Shown here piece after piece: positions 32,447 through 39,017 of a stretch of 64,000 bases of DNA; the stretch's first letter is position 1, and the number at the start of each line of letters is the position of its first letter. The position numbers and the translations under genes were made by a program. Below the pieces are notes generated by a model that saw only the letters and a list, made by a program, of their open reading frames with translations, was not told where the DNA came from and did not search any database. Source of the DNA: Armatimonadota bacterium (lineage in GTDB: Bacteria; Armatimonadota; Fimbriimonadia; Fimbriimonadales; Fimbriimonadaceae); the NCBI GenBank assembly GCA_022563855.1, contig JADFMN010000004.1, positions 248,001 to 312,000 on the forward strand, read 5' to 3'.

Positions 32447-32833
32447 CTACAGCGACTCAATCTGATCCGCTGTGCTCAAGCGTGCCAAGGTTCCCTGTTT
32501 GGCGCCAATGCCCCACTGTTGGATCTTTGGCCAATTCTTGATGATACGTGCCGCATCTGCGAATAATGTATCCTGCTTACCCGAGTAGCGAACGTAGAGC
32601 ACCCGTACACCATTGGCCATGAGCGCCTTATGCTCCGCGTCACGCCTTCGCTGATTGTGATCACGACTAATCACGATCCAATCATTCTTACCCGCTTCGG
32701 GAATCCAAACAGTATCTGGTGTATCCGTTGGGAAGCGATCCCTCAAAGCAATGACTTCGTGACCATGAACCAAGCCGGACAGAGCCCGGGCGATTCGGAA
32801 AGAGATATCGTTATCGAAGAAGAACGTCGCCAC
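32447..32833 (-). CDS. PIN-like toxin of a type II toxin-antitoxin pair
   Basis: 128 residues from GTG 32833. PIN-like fold (DUF5615/PIN-10 type) with conserved acidic residues FFFDNDIS at the start, DTPDTVWIPEAG in the middle and VISRDHNQRRRD after it, as expected for a metal-dependent RNase. GTG 32833 is preferred because the family begins at FFFDND. In-frame ATG codons further up (32872, 32878) would lie well inside the antitoxin gene. It overlaps the antitoxin gene by 23 bases. The gene pair is less GC-rich than its surroundings, consistent with horizontal acquisition. Confidence 0.7.
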   Translation of the reverse strand: MATFFFDNDISFRIARALSGLVHGHEVIALRDRFPTDTPDTVWIPEAGKNDWIVISRDHNQRRRDAEHKALMANGVRVLYVRYSGKQDTLFADAARIIKNWPKIQQWGIGAKQGTLARLSTADQIESL

Positions 32834-33488
32834 CTTTCTTGCGCTCCATGGAACGTTCGAATTCAGCGGCATCTTCAATAGCTGAGGTAGTCGTACCGTA
32901 CCACCAAGCGACAGCGCCCGCGTCTTCTTCAGCCATTAGTGCTTGTGCGAGGACGTACGTGTGAGCTCCAGAAATATCTTCTATGGGCTTTCCAAATGCT
33001 CTGTTTGGATGAAGTACGACTGCCCGATCACGACCCAATGGCCGCCATTCGGATGCAAGATCGCCGACGTGAACGAGTTGTCTGCCGATCTCTTCGAAGA
33101 ACGCGTGATGTTGTCCCGTTAGGGCGTGCTGCCAATTGCCACCCAGTTCAATTAGCATCCCCTTTCCATCAGTAGCAAATCTCTTAGTCGCCAGCGGATA
33201 TGAATCGCCCCACGCTTTACGGAACTTGCCAGCTGTAGCGCGAATTTCATCGAGCTTTACGCCCGCATCGCGAAAACCCCGCACGTACATCAGCTCAACG
33301 AGGTCGCCGAAAGTAAGTGCAGACTCCTCATCCCGTGCGATCACTGCTGCATATTCCTTGGTGCCGTACCTGAGCTCTTGGACGTAACCCTCTACCCACC
33401 GCGACAGAGTTCGTCGCGGTGTCTTGAGCAAGCGGGCCGTATCAACTAGTGAGTAAATGCCTACCCCGAGGGTTTCAGAGCTTGTCAT
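32811..33488 (-). CDS. DUF433-type antitoxin with N-terminal HTH
   Basis: 225 residues. The N-terminus (IYSLVDTARLLKTPRRTLSRWVEGY) is a MerR-like helix-turn-helix. The C-terminal part, HPNRAFGKPIEDISGAHTYVLAQALMAEEDAGAVAWWYG, matches the DUF433 antitoxin module (GxP core, short helices). The middle 100 residues are unassigned. It would neutralise the PIN-like toxin and repress the pair. At 225 residues it is much longer than the common DUF433 antitoxins of about 75. A TAAAAT box lies 7 bases before the ATG. Confidence 0.72.
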   Translation of the reverse strand: MTSSETLGVGIYSLVDTARLLKTPRRTLSRWVEGYVQELRYGTKEYAAVIARDEESALTFGDLVELMYVRGFRDAGVKLDEIRATAGKFRKAWGDSYPLATKRFATDGKGMLIELGGNWQHALTGQHHAFFEEIGRQLVHVGDLASEWRPLGRDRAVVLHPNRAFGKPIEDISGAHTYVLAQALMAEEDAGAVAWWYGTTTSAIEDAAEFERSMERKKGGDVLLR

Positions 33489-33770: not shown

Positions 33771-34994
33771 ATGAAAAGGCTCGTATACCTACTCATTGCA
33801 TCAGCGATCGGTTCCGCCTCCGCAAGCGCGCAAGTAAACGTTCGATCCTCTGAACTCAATGAGGCGACCTTCTCGAAGATCCGCGCCGCGATCCTTCTCA
33901 ACCCGTCGGCGGCGCAGTGGGAGACGATCCCATGGCAGCCCGAACTCGGGCCAGCGATCACCGAAGCACGCAAGCAGGACAAGCCGATCCTCCTGTGGAT
34001 GATGAACGGAAACCCCGTCGGCATGACTTGATTCAACGGTGTAAAGGACAGGCAGTTAGCCTGGGAAGACGAAGGAGTCAGGGAGCTAGTCAAGGGTTTC
34101 TTGCCGGCCACCGACGAAGTGGACAAGCTGCAGCGCGGCAACACGCCCGCGAGCAGGTTCTTCCGTCAGGTCATGACCCGCAACTACTCCAACCTGCAAA
34201 CCACGCAAGGCACCTACTTGGTGACGCCAAGCGGTGAGCTGCTGGGTTATGGTCACACGCTCGATCCTGCGGGGATGAAGACGTTCCTCAAGGACGGGCT
34301 GAAGAAATGGAACGCAATGTCACAGGCGGAGAGGCTCGGGAACGAAGCAAACATGGCCAAGAAGTCCTCGATGTATCCCGAAGACGGGCTCGTACTCATG
34401 GTCGCGCTGCACAAGTTCTATGAGAGAGAGCCGCGCACCGCGCGCGAGCTACGCGGACTGGTCGAGTGGAACAGGGACTACGCGTGGTTCAGCAAGGACG
34501 AAGCGCGACAGTTCCTCCCCAATGCTCCCAAGACGGGCGACAAGCACGAAGTGCCGACAAGCCTGATCAACCGGCTGGCGCGTTACCACTTCACGGACAC
34601 GGTTCTTGCTTGGGCAGACCCGTATCCGTTGAACAAAGTTGAATCCGCACAGCTGACGTCGACGGTCACTAAGATCGAAGGAAACATTGTTTCAGTGCGG
34701 TTCGACGGCGCCGTCAAGGTGTGGCAAGACGACCTTCCACGCTTCGGCTACTCCAGGGCGCGGCTCCCGCGCAAACCCGACCGCGGCTACGACGCAAAGC
34801 TCCTTGGTTATGCCACTTTCGACTTAGAAACGAGCAAGTTCGTGTCGTTCGAACTCGTCGCCAAGGGTGCCCATCACGGCGGTGGCGTGGGCGCATACAC
34901 TGTTCCGACGACCCTGGGCATCGTGCTTTCTCTCGCTGGGGACAGACCGATGGACCGGATCGAACCGCTGCACATCAGACAGTACGATTGGTGA
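33771..34994 (+). CDS. Predicted secreted selenoprotein, thioredoxin-like (in-frame UGA as Sec87)
   Basis: Read through one TGA (34029-34031), the gene gives 407 residues in a single frame. It has a Sec signal peptide (MKRLVYLLIASAIGSASASA-Q), then a thioredoxin-like segment ARKQDKPILLWMMNGNPVGMT-U-FNGVKDRQLAW, and a conserved-looking body to GIVLSLAGDRPMD. The sequence before the TGA (KPILLW) is the first strand of a thioredoxin fold, and the TGA falls where such proteins carry their redox Cys. I recall planctomycete relatives with Cys or Sec at this spot, but this is from memory. There is no Cys anywhere in the chain, so Sec87 would be the only redox residue. A hairpin 18 bases downstream looks like a bacterial SECIS. 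A nonsense mutation is the alternative. Confidence 0.7.
34049..34063 (+). promoter_or_regulatory. SECIS-like hairpin for Sec87
   Basis: CAGGC and GCCTG form a perfect 5-bp stem around the loop AGTTA. The loop begins 23 bases after the end of the TGA, inside the range seen for bacterial SECIS elements, and has G as its second base. It lies in coding sequence, as bacterial SECIS elements do. Confidence 0.5.
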
Positions 34995-35070
34995 TCGCTG
35001 TAGCTGCATCCCTCAGGTCTCGTTCTCTCTCATCACCGGACGTGCGCGAGCGACAAAAGCCATCATTCGG

Positions 35071-35076
35071 TACAGT
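35071..35076 (+). promoter_or_regulatory. -10 hexamer TACAGT, predicted leaderless start
   Basis: TACAGT ends 7 bases before ATG 35084, in the 89-base gap between the two predicted selenoprotein genes. The second gene may therefore be transcribed separately. Confidence 0.45.
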
Positions 35077-35083
35077 TGCACAG

Positions 35084-35557
35084 ATGACCATCCAGAACGA
35101 CCAGCCGTTCCCGACGATAAAAGCCTTCAGGCTCGATGGCGGCAAGAGGACACTGCCCGACGACCTTGGGCCGGGCTGGAGCGTGCTCCTCTTTTATCGC
35201 GGAGTGTGGTGAAGCTTCTGCCATCGGCAGTTGGCCGAGTTCCAGTCACAGTTCGAGCGGCTTCGGCGCCTAGAGACGCAGGTCGCGGCCCTCTCTTCGG
35301 ACTCTGAGGAAGAGGCGCGGGAGATGGTCGATCGCAACTCTTTGACCTACCCCATGTACTTTGGGCTCGACGCCGAGAGGACGCTGGCGGCGATCGGAGG
35401 CCATGTCAAGTTGGAGAAGGGGTTCGTGCAGCCGTCGGGGTTCCTTTTGCGGCCCGACCGGACCATCGTCCAGTTCACCCAGTCGAGCGGGCCGATTGGC
35501 CGGTTTGACGCCGTGGACGCGGTGAGCATCATCAAGTGGTACCAGGAGAGTAGTTGA
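35084..35557 (+). CDS. Predicted peroxiredoxin-like selenoprotein (UxxC, Sec43)
   Basis: Read through TGA 35210-35212, the gene gives 157 residues in one frame. The context LLFYRGVW-U-SFCHRQLAEFQ aligns with the AhpC/TSA-like motif YRGxWCPYCxxQL, with the TGA exactly at the peroxidatic Cys. C46 would be the resolving partner in a UxxC pair and is the only Cys. The rest is a complete peroxiredoxin-like domain (GLDAERTLAAIGG, then GFLLRPDRTIVQFTQ), and codon use does not change across the TGA. It has no signal peptide, so it is cytoplasmic. It probably reduces peroxides. Sec machinery (selA, selB, selC, selD) is not in the window. Confidence 0.8.
35218..35230 (+). promoter_or_regulatory. SECIS-like hairpin for Sec43
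   Basis: CTGCC ATC GGCAG, a perfect 5-bp stem starting 6 bases after the TGA. The loop is closer to the TGA and smaller than in well-studied bacterial SECIS elements. An alternative fold, GCCA/TGGC around 8 bases (35220-35235), is also possible. Confidence 0.35.
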
Positions 35558-35669
35558 GGGTGACGGACTCAACGAACGGCTCGCTTGCTTGGCCGATATC
35601 TCAGAACGGACTCCGCAGTTGGTCCCGAGGGTAGGCGTTGCACCGTCCGCACACTCAGGCAAGAAAGAT

Positions 35670-35723
35670 GGAGGGTGGCGCTCCTGCGACACCGCTCACG
35701 GTTTTGCAGGAGCAAAACCCTCC
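35670..35723 (+). terminator. Long two-part hairpin behind the selenoprotein genes
   Basis: GGAGGGT (35670-35676) pairs with ACCCTCC (35717-35723), and GCTCCTGC (35680-35687) with GCAGGAGC (35706-35713), separated by a 3x3 internal loop. That is 15 perfect base pairs. No T-run follows. It may be a terminator or another mobile hairpin repeat. The rest of the gap 35558-35767 shows nothing else. Confidence 0.5.
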
Positions 35724-35767
35724 AATTGCGCACCTTCAAAGGATAACATCACGCCAGGTGTGATCCG

Positions 35768-37558
35768 ATGACGACACTAATTCTCGCGGCACTGCTGACG
35801 ACTCAAGACCGAGGCGGGCTAGCCGGACTCGCGCAGAAGCACGAGGGGCAGTCCCGGCGCGCGACCTCGACGAGGCGCGAAGGCCCGGATGGCAACTACC
35901 TCAGAACTGCCAGACCAAAGGGCGACCTCAGCGAGCGCAGCAACTGGGACAACTTCCGTGTCGCGGCGGGTGAGACGCACGTGCTGATGGACGAAGAGGG
36001 GCCGGGGGTCATCACGCACATGTGGCTCACGTTCCTCGGCCCACAACCGCAAGGTTGGGCGCCGGACGGCTCGGCAGACCACCAGGAGATGCTCTTGAGG
36101 ATCTACTGGGACGGAAGCGAAAAGCCAGCCATAGAAGCACCGGTAGGAGACTTCTTCGCCAACGCGTTCGGCAAAAGGAGGGAGGTTATCAGCATCCCGG
36201 TCATCGTCGAGGACGCGGACTCTTACAACTGCTTCTGGCACATGCCGTTCCGCAAGTCCGCGAGGATCGAGATCGTCAACCAGAGCGAGAAGCCGATCTC
36301 CCTGCTCTACTACAACATCGACTGGATCAAGCGCGATTCCCTCCCGGAGGACACGCCGTACTTCTACGCGCAGTACCGCCAGGAGTACCCGGTCAAGAGC
36401 GGCCAAGACTACGTCGTGCTGGATACCGAGGGAGCAGGCCACTACGTTGGCACGGTGCTCAGCGTCAGGACAAGAAGCCCCAGCTGGTTCGGCGAGGGCG
36501 ACGAGAAGATCTACATCGACGGCGAGGAGCACCCTTCGATTTGGGGCACCGGCACAGAGGACTACTTTCTTTCAGCTTGGGGACTGAAGACGACCAGCAC
36601 ACCGTACTTCGGGACGCCGTTCTTCGACCAGTGGGGCATAGTCGGCGGCCACACGAGCGCATACCGGTGGCACATCAACGACCCACTCGTGTTCCAGAAA
36701 GGGATCAAGGTCACGTTCGAGCACTTCGGCTGGATCTCGCCGGATGAAAACCCCGACTACAAGAGCACTTCGTGGAACGAGAGGGAAGACGACTACTCGA
36801 GCGTCGCGTTCTGGTACCAGACCGGCACGCCGACCTTCGCAGCCCGCGCGCCGAGCGGGCCAGAGAGAAAACTCCCCTCTCTCGAAAGGGTGATCGCCTA
36901 CGCCCGCGACCACATCGAAAACCGCGGAGACTTCCCGGCAGAGACGCAAAACCTCTCCTTCTACGACGGCCCCCAAGTGCTCTACCGACCGACCAGCGAA
37001 AGAGACGCCTGGATCGAGATTCCGTTCGAGATCACCGAGAAGGAACCGCTGCGACTCCTGCTCAACATGACCACCAGCTACGACTTCGGCACTTACCAGG
37101 CGTACCTGATTCCAGTAGAGACTGTTTTGGAGTGCGGCGATTCATCGCCGCTTTTGCTACCGCAGGCCGAGCCGCTCGGCATTCGTTTGGGTTTGTTCGG
37201 TTTGGTCCGGATTGGTTCGGGTTCGTTCGGCGGTTCGGGAGTTCGGGAGTTCGGAGGGTCGCCGCAAAGTCCCGCCCCATATTCATCATTCATCAATCAT
37301 CAATCTGCAGTCCCCCTCGGCTCCCCCATCGACCTCTACACCAAGGAAGTCAAGAGCAAGGAGATCCACCTGCTCGACTTCTGGCCCGAACCCGGCATGT
37401 ACATCCTTCGGCTCGTATGTACCGGCAAGAACCCCCTCTCGAATGGCTACTACCTCGGCATGGAATCCGTACGCTTGAGAGAACGAAGACCGAGGGTCAA
37501 ACAGTACGGCCACGACAAGGACATGGACTGGCGAAAAGAACTGAAGCTGTACCGCTAG
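35768..37558 (+). CDS. GH172 (DUF2961) family protein carrying a repeat-derived insertion
   Basis: 596 residues. A weak signal-like start (MTTLILAALLTTQD) is followed by a complete DUF2961 domain. The hallmark GTGTEDYFLSAWG is near residue 261, and the typical end DFWPEPGMYILRLVCTGKNPLSNGYYLG then RLRERRPRVKQYGHDKDMDWRKE is present. Between YLIPVE (about 450) and SPIDLYTKEV (about 516) lie some 60 residues of non-family sequence. These are encoded by a copy of the intergenic repeat mosaic and remain in frame. Whether the enzyme tolerates this loop is unknown; it sits between two strands near the C-terminus. The substrate is probably a furanose-containing glycan. Confidence 0.83.
   Translation: MTTLILAALLTTQDRGGLAGLAQKHEGQSRRATSTRREGPDGNYLRTARPKGDLSERSNWDNFRVAAGETHVLMDEEGPGVITHMWLTFLGPQPQGWAPDGSADHQEMLLRIYWDGSEKPAIEAPVGDFFANAFGKRREVISIPVIVEDADSYNCFWHMPFRKSARIEIVNQSEKPISLLYYNIDWIKRDSLPEDTPYFYAQYRQEYPVKSGQDYVVLDTEGAGHYVGTVLSVRTRSPSWFGEGDEKIYIDGEEHPSIWGTGTEDYFLSAWGLKTTSTPYFGTPFFDQWGIVGGHTSAYRWHINDPLVFQKGIKVTFEHFGWISPDENPDYKSTSWNEREDDYSSVAFWYQTGTPTFAARAPSGPERKLPSLERVIAYARDHIENRGDFPAETQNLSFYDGPQVLYRPTSERDAWIEIPFEITEKEPLRLLLNMTTSYDFGTYQAYLIPVETVLECGDSSPLLLPQAEPLGIRLGLFGLVRIGSGSFGGSGVREFGGSPQSPAPYSSFINHQSAVPLGSPIDLYTKEVKSKEIHLLDFWPEPGMYILRLVCTGKNPLSNGYYLGMESVRLRERRPRVKQYGHDKDMDWRKELKLYR
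37121..37306 (+). repeat. Repeat mosaic (module D plus TTCGG tract) inside the GH172 gene
   Basis: 37129-37170 reads GGAGTGCGGCGATTCATCG, a hairpin, then CGCTTTTGCTACCGCAGGCCG, matching the terminator-type repeat at 22631-22672. It is followed by a stem (CCGAGCCGCTCGG) and then by TTCGG-rich sequence to about 37262, including TTCGGGAGTTCGGGAGTTCGG. The same order, D then TTCGG tract, occurs on the reverse strand at 8843-8766. Confidence 0.7.
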
Positions 37559-37673
37559 CAGAGTCTCCTAGCCTGTGCGAGACGCCAATCACAGAATGAA
37601 TTCTACCGGGCGTGGGGCACGCGTCAGGTATGGTCATGCCACCGGCGCGAACGCGCCGCCGAGGAGATTTGAT

Positions 37674-39017
37674 ATGAAAGTTATTGGCATCGTCGGCATC
37701 CTGGGTTTGGGCCTGGTTGCCGCGACCGCAATTTCGTTCTCGTTGTCCAGGGATGCTGTCGGAGCTTCTGCTACGGCGAGCAAAGCTTCGGAATCAAGTG
37801 AATTCGTGTCGGCGGAGTCGTTCTTCACAGGAACTGTGGTCGATAACGATGGTGCTGGCCCGCTCGCAACGGACTTGGAACGCGTTAATCCCAGGCGGGA
37901 ACTGCCCCAGGGCATGGAGTGGATAGCCCAGACCCCGCCGGTCGATACGTCCGGCATCGGCATGAAGACGGCAGACGGAGTGTTCGTCGGAGTCGTGCTC
38001 CCGTACGACACGCGCGAGGGCGACCAGGTCTCCACCGTCGTCGTCGCATCGGCGCCGCCGGGCGAGTCCGAGGCGATGTTCGCGGGCATGGTCATCGTGG
38101 ACCCCCAAGGCAAGAATCACGACGTAAAGCCTGGCGAGTTCATCACCTTCGCCGCTGTCGGGGCCATGGTCTGGAAGCTGCTCGACCGGGACGGCAACAC
38201 GGTCGCCGAGACGAACGTCGATCTAACGGACCAGGAGAGCCGCGACAACGAGTTCCAGCACGAGCCGATCATCGCCAGGTCGAAACAGGTGATCGACATC
38301 CCCGGCGACTTCAACGGAGACATGTCCGACACCAAGATCACGATCGCTGGCCAAGAGGCGACGATTATCGCCGAGAACCCGCGCGGCGCGGTCTTCGCAG
38401 TGCCCGACCTCGGTGAGAGGGTCGGCGAACTGGGGTGCGTCGTGGAGGAGGCCGGCGAGACGTATGAGATCCCAATGGTCGCTATCTCACTGAGCATCGA
38501 AGGCCCAAAGACCATGGTGCTTGGTCAGACCTCGAACATCAAGATCACGATCAACGGCCTGGGCGCTCTGGAGGACCTTCCAGAAGGGCAGATGGTCGAC
38601 AGTATCTACATCAAGTACCGCAACGACACCCCTGCGACGATCAGCTTCCCGAACCACAACGTGGACTCGCACGCGGTCGACATCTCGCAGGTCAAGGACG
38701 GTTCGTACACGTTCGAGGCGCCGATTACAGCCGTGTCGCCTGGTTCGTTCATGGTCGAAGCATGGAGCTGGGTCTATCTGGAGGCGTCGTACGGCCAATA
38801 CTGTACGTCGCGGCAGTGCTGCTTGGTCACGTGCGGAACCTGCACAGAGGGCTGGTTCTTCTGCAACGACGACGGCACGGTCAACTGCGCCAAAGTGGAC
38901 AAAGACAAGATTCAGTGCGGCCGGTGCGGCCAAGCCAACTGCAACAACAACCACTCGGGCGGCGCCGCTTGCGGTCACTGGTGGTGCAGTTGCCCCTTCG
39001 GTGCCTGCGGCTGCTGA
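37674..39017 (+). CDS. Secreted protein with C-terminal 15-Cys tail, unknown function
   Basis: 447 residues from ATG 37674, chosen for the GAGGAG 7 bases upstream and the hydrophobic start (MKVIGIVGILGLGLVAATAISFSL). The body (about 60-375) is beta-rich and looks like two or three immunoglobulin-like modules, for example DFNGDMSDTKITIAGQEATII and LGQTSNIKITINGLG. The last 73 residues contain 15 Cys in tight spacing (CTSRQCCLVTCGTC near the start, CSCPFGACGC at the very end) and several Asn, Gly and Trp. Such a tail could be a disulfide knot or a metal-binding module. I do not recognise the family. It lies between an intact GH172 gene and a GH172 remnant. Confidence 0.7.
   Translation: MKVIGIVGILGLGLVAATAISFSLSRDAVGASATASKASESSEFVSAESFFTGTVVDNDGAGPLATDLERVNPRRELPQGMEWIAQTPPVDTSGIGMKTADGVFVGVVLPYDTREGDQVSTVVVASAPPGESEAMFAGMVIVDPQGKNHDVKPGEFITFAAVGAMVWKLLDRDGNTVAETNVDLTDQESRDNEFQHEPIIARSKQVIDIPGDFNGDMSDTKITIAGQEATIIAENPRGAVFAVPDLGERVGELGCVVEEAGETYEIPMVAISLSIEGPKTMVLGQTSNIKITINGLGALEDLPEGQMVDSIYIKYRNDTPATISFPNHNVDSHAVDISQVKDGSYTFEAPITAVSPGSFMVEAWSWVYLEASYGQYCTSRQCCLVTCGTCTEGWFFCNDDGTVNCAKVDKDKIQCGRCGQANCNNNHSGGAACGHWWCSCPFGACGC

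Follow-up and report, generated by a model that had tools for sequence, protein, structure and literature searches.

A predicted selenocysteine codon in a divergent Prx-like gene of Armatimonadota, next to a member of an apparently uncatalogued selenoprotein family

Selenoproteins of the Prx-like UxxC kind have been known since early genome surveys. A "Prx-like protein" was described in the Sargasso Sea survey (PMC1088965), and Prx-like thiol:disulfide oxidoreductase selenoproteins with UxxC or UxxU motifs are listed under PF00578 in Table 1 of PMC13188914. UxxC selenoproteins are classed as "Prx-like" and not as peroxiredoxins (Prx) because the peroxidatic Cys (C_P) of the TxxC peroxiredoxins matches the second position of UxxC (PMC1088965). 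A described feature of the bacterial SECIS is a small apical loop with a guanosine (PMC1088965).

The gene considered here occupies 35084..35557 on the plus strand of the window, the whole 64,000-nucleotide stretch of Armatimonadota DNA that was analyzed. It runs from an ATG at 35084 to a terminal TGA at 35555-35557; its sole internal stop is the TGA at 35210-35212 (codon 43), after which the frame is open for 114 codons. The translation reads MTIQNDQPFPTIKAFRLDGGKRTLPDDLGPGWSVLLFYRGVW, then the stop, then SFCHRQLAEFQ..., which places the TGA within YRGVW-U-SFC. Re-reading of the open reading frame and its translation bore out exactly the frame, coordinates, and stop given by the first-pass annotation. 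On the available sequence evidence, translation very probably inserts selenocysteine (Sec) at the in-frame UGA, with a probability of about 0.95. The gene would then comprise 157 codons with one Sec (43) and one Cys (46), an AhpC/TSA-fold selenoprotein in which Sec43 is the predicted first position of a U-x-x-C motif and Cys46 (TGC, 35219..35221) the second. A standard gene caller would give it as a 42-residue or N-terminally clipped protein.

A GTG at 34991, forming a GTGA overlap with the stop of the upstream gene, was considered as an alternative start. ATG 35084 is preferred because third-position G+C is 0.45 over the 31 added codons, against 0.81 in the gene. Neither a clear ribosome-binding site for the gene nor a promoter-like site upstream of it was found.

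Homologues sharing the loop FYRGxW-[U/C]-xxC were surveyed in 291 genomes of the phylum Armatimonadota. The codon at residue 43 is TGA in 15 of them (window copy excluded; e.g. VFYRGVWUPYCHRQLGE and IFYRGCWUPFCLRQLAE) and TGC or TGT in about 27, supporting the Cys-to-Sec replacement that had been proposed for this residue and placing the position of the TGA beyond chance. On a tree of the UxxC/CxxC homologues, Sec and Cys forms are interleaved and have therefore replaced each other several times; six changes are counted, at least four of them forced by starred branches. The distribution of the biosynthetic enzyme SelA follows the TGA form: 13 of the 15 genomes with a TGA-form copy are SelA-positive, compared with 142 of all 291 genomes (p = 0.002); the two SelA-negative ones are 72-73% complete. 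Genomes with a Cys-form copy show no such bias (13/24). The window protein itself forms a long branch of unsure placement. No close orthologue was found in the 291 genomes, where the best identity is about 30%, and a search of genome contigs with the protein returned no relative.

Which of the two active-site residues corresponds to the peroxidatic Cys is decided by alignment. TxxC peroxiredoxins, both from the same phylum and from the PDB, align without gaps, which puts their Thr or Ser opposite residue 43 and the peroxidatic Cys opposite Cys46; since C_P falls on Cys46, Sec43 would be the first position of a thioredoxin-type CxxC. The initial description of a UGA exactly at the peroxidatic Cys was thus inexact. 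It is possible, though unlikely, that the protein is nonetheless a true peroxiredoxin with Sec as its peroxidatic residue, and not a thioredoxin-like UxxC oxidoreductase. The overall fold speaks for this: Pfam assigns the protein to AhpC-TSA, and an AlphaFold model (pLDDT 91) has a peroxiredoxin fold whose best PDB matches are Bcp4 (Bcp) and AhpC. The active site argues against it, as the TxxC signature is absent, its C_P being aligned with Cys46 and its Thr with Sec43.

Downstream of the UGA, a bacterial SECIS hairpin is predicted at 35224..35238 on the plus strand (UCGGC-AGUUG-GCCGA), with its loop starting at the 17th nucleotide past the UGA and a stability of -6.7 kcal/mol. It has five pairs and a G among the first two loop bases. 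When the 61 nt past the UGA were simply folded, the result was not significant by dinucleotide shuffle, so shuffles of synonymous codons were used, with the Cys homologues as controls; the most stable simple hairpin within 54 nt past the codon was compared with 300 such shuffles per gene. In this copy the hairpin has a z of -1.2, and 16% of shuffles are equally stable, which is not significant alone; minimum-free-energy folding favors an overlapping alternative. Among the homologues, mean z is -1.51 in the TGA copies (n=16) vs +0.30 in the Cys copies (n=27; Mann-Whitney p = 2.9e-6), and combined p values are 2e-5 and 0.99, respectively. The hairpin lies inside 35210-35250, the interval where a SECIS had been anticipated; this expectation holds convincingly at the level of the family and weakly for the present copy taken by itself.

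Many TGA copies have an AGUU loop in common; it begins either 17 or 26 nt past the UGA, which gives two registers. In the 26-nt register, a seven-pair stem is paired in 84% of cells, with 12 double-sided changes. None of 500 shuffles attained its covariation score, nor did any slid version, the slid control being somewhat favorable because the register was picked from the same sequences. Searching Rfam with 34800-35800 for known SECIS or other RNA elements gave chance-level matches only.

The host genome (3.18 Mb in 22 contigs, 96% complete) carries the full Sec machinery, another point on which the first-pass proposal depended. SelA (513 bits), SelB (345 bits), and SelD (359 bits) each score above cut-off, and a tRNA-Sec lies at C4:313724-313813, 1.7 kb past the right end of the window (74 bits, cut-off 47; called tRNA-SeC with anticodon tca by ARAGORN). 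The host SelD gene (L017, on C4) has an in-frame TGA of its own in a CAG-U-ASK loop and is itself a predicted selenoprotein. Residue-43 alignment, machinery, and the SECIS-like hairpin at 35224-35238 together support the Cys-to-Sec replacement originally suggested.

A nonsense mutation in a decaying pseudogene, with the TGA as a genuine stop, is a very improbable account of the same data. The long branch, the lack of a close orthologue, and the weak individual hairpin would suit it, but the coding signal runs undisturbed across the TGA: codon positions 1/2/3 have G+C contents of 0.57/0.45/0.81 before it and 0.60/0.43/0.85 after it, much as in the neighboring genes. The read-through protein matches Pfam AhpC-TSA with 65.6 bits over residues 7-130 (cut-off 26), and the part past the TGA alone (108 codons from the next in-frame TTG) still reaches 29.8 bits in the same frame. 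No further stop or frameshift interrupts the frame, homologues from different families of the phylum keep the TGA at this residue, and the genome has a complete Sec machinery. Slightly less probable still is a sequencing or assembly error hiding a true TGC, TGT, or TGG at 35210. The genome is a draft of 22 contigs and the base at 35210-35212 comes from the assembly alone; a random error is nevertheless unlikely to strike, in a Sec-coding genome, precisely the codon at which 15 homologues have TGA. Genome-wide reassignment of UGA to another amino acid found no support and is exceedingly improbable, as ordinary genes end in UGA, the Prx-like gene and its upstream neighbor included, and machinery and SECIS indicate Sec.

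With UGA read as Sec, the route from codon to enzyme may be outlined as follows. SelA and SelD would make Sec-tRNA(UCA), and SelB would deliver it to the UGA on meeting the hairpin just downstream. The product would be a peroxiredoxin-fold enzyme of roughly 17 kDa with the redox pair U43-S-F-C46. Sec43 would presumably be the nucleophile attacking the oxidized substrate, a peroxide or a disulfide; Cys46 might then displace the product and close an Se-S bond (selenenylsulfide), which thioredoxin or a similar donor could reset. For this protein we infer insertion, reaction, substrate, and reductant alike.

The gene directly upstream is a second selenoprotein candidate. It lies at 33771..34994 on the same strand, stops 89 bp short of the Prx-like ATG, and would have 407 codons with UGA as Sec. 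Its one internal TGA, at 34029..34031, lies in the motif NGNPVGMT-U-FNG (ILLWMMNGNPVGMT-U-FNGV) at a residue that is TGA in homologues, and 320 open codons follow. A SECIS hairpin is predicted at 34049..34063 on the plus strand (CAGGC-AGUUA-GCCUG; loop from the 23rd nt past the UGA; -6.7 kcal/mol), with a z of -2.4 and 4% of synonymous shuffles equally stable. In the predicted structure (pLDDT 89), an N-terminal helix that resembles a signal peptide is followed by a thioredoxin domain and, at the C-terminal end, a beta domain with weak fold matches. The thioredoxin domain resembles DsbD-gamma (Z 9.8) and, with a higher score, 3f9u (Z 13.8; 119 residues at an rmsd of 2.5). Sec86 sits just before the active-site helix, and profile alignment places it opposite the first Cys of CxxC in 3f9u, with a weak E of 0.025. 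The window copy is atypical for its family in having Met for the motif Cys, so the predicted protein contains one Sec and no Cys. A second family copy in the host genome, at C1:291959-292735 (L118; G000:C1:291300-293500), has the more canonical motif NGHPFGCTU-GNG.

The adjacency of the two genes may be accidental; at the other loci examined, no UxxC Prx adjoins a gene of the upstream family. Elsewhere in the window, adjacent and overlapping genes with PIN_10 and HTH_66 domains at 32447-33488 on the minus strand have the appearance of a toxin-antitoxin-type pair. A plus-strand gene at 37575-39017 with no Pfam match ends in a Cys-rich tail (CCLVTCGTCTEGWFFCNDDGTVNC...CGHWWCSCPFGACGC).

The consensus of the upstream family is W-x-M-N-G-H-P-L-G-C-T-U-N-N-G. 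The motif residue is TGA in 81 of 87 aligned homologues of the phylum; the other six comprise four with Ser or Asp codons and two with a doubtfully aligned TGC. A DNA pattern for NG[HN]PxxCT-TGA-xNG, searched in contigs of several phyla, gave at least 119 matching stretches, most of which then stay open for about 300-350 codons unless the stretch ends. Planctomycetota, Armatimonadota, Poribacteria, Chloroflexi (Chloroflexota), Marinimicrobia, Latescibacteria, and others are among the matches listed. Some profile match occurs in 173 of 392 planctomycete genomes, and nearly all strong full-length matches have one TGA. Copies are present in the cultured planctomycete strains Poly30 and Pla163. 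Nine strong planctomycete matches without a TGA were read; five were clearly aligned at the Sec site, and Cys is absent there from all five: four have Asp or Ser for Sec, and in one the motif is gone. Of the phylum genomes with the TGA form, 43 of 48 have SelA (p = 1e-10), as do 16 of 18 genomes sampled via the DNA-pattern matches. Hairpins past the UGA are more stable than in synonymous shuffles (mean z -1.63, n=80), vs z of +0.03 and +0.08 in control stretches 150 and 300 nt further on.

These observations suggest that the window probably contains a pair of neighboring selenoprotein genes, of which the upstream one belongs to a large uncatalogued family. Its members would be secreted proteins with a DsbD-gamma-like thioredoxin domain and a beta-rich domain, in which Sec stands for the first Cys of CxxC and the second Cys is lost; a partner Cys, if present, lies 1-2 residues before the Sec (C-U or C-T-U). 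The Sec is almost invariant, with essentially no Cys forms, non-Sec homologues having mostly Ser or Asp. No Pfam or NCBIfam family was reached at cut-off by the members examined, 63 of them giving weak E-values only; no entry fits in a 2026 inventory of 119 prokaryotic selenoprotein families, and no paper of the open-access literature searched contains the motif string NGHPLGCT. The family thus looks to be missing from curated resources, and it may still have been named elsewhere. Its nearest described relatives are the VPGUxxT and Trx7/PDZ thioredoxin-like selenoproteins (NF041383, NF041382, and NF041199), likewise of thioredoxin fold and weakly similar to a few family members (best E 4e-6). 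The upstream family has a different motif and a different C-terminal domain, and it is set apart by its lack of Cys forms. With the VPGUxxT model, seven other members examined scored at best 19.7 bits against a cut-off of 275, and the window copy gave no match at E<=1.

The Prx-like gene leads to a neighboring family whose in-frame TGA recurs in well over 100 genomes and for which there is essentially no Cys homologue. Finders that demand Cys homologues would discard such a family, and the deep-Sep authors state that their method may misidentify selenoproteins without them (PMC12013277). If the reading of the upstream family is correct, a selenoprotein widespread in Planctomycetota and Armatimonadota has so far escaped cataloguing, and the question of why Cys does not replace Sec in it becomes testable.

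Among described systems, the best NCBIfam match of the Prx-like protein by score is to the SelL-related redox proteins (NF040769; residues 8-100), at 37.6 bits against a cut-off of 120. The AhpC equivalog TIGR03137 gives 30.6 bits (cut-off 272). PrxU (TxxU; NF040737) shares the fold, the Pfam family, and a Sec in the active-site loop; however, its Sec is at the peroxidatic position, where the window protein has Cys46, with its own predicted Sec three residues earlier, and the PrxU model gives 23.6 bits (cut-off 270). TxxU peroxiredoxin genes, with TGA at the classical peroxidatic Cys, occur at six loci (L275, L215, L070, L071, L072, and L073) in related or pattern-hit genomes; two of these loci, L275 and L215, also have an upstream-family (CTU) gene inside the same 8 kb. 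The closest resemblance is to the Prx-like UxxC selenoproteins, with which the window protein shares the AhpC-TSA domain, a UxxC where peroxiredoxins have TxxC, and homologues that interchange Sec and Cys. A bacterial SECIS past the UGA is predicted as well, with significance across the family and not for this copy alone. It differs from them in its identity of about 30% to the nearest protein found, in having Ser after the Sec (WUSFC) where the others mostly have Pro (WUPFC/WUPYC), and in carrying no Cys beyond Cys46. By its predicted translation, the gene falls among the known "Prx-like thiol:disulfide oxidoreductase (UxxC)" selenoproteins as a new and divergent member, and would add one such UxxC selenoprotein in Armatimonadota.
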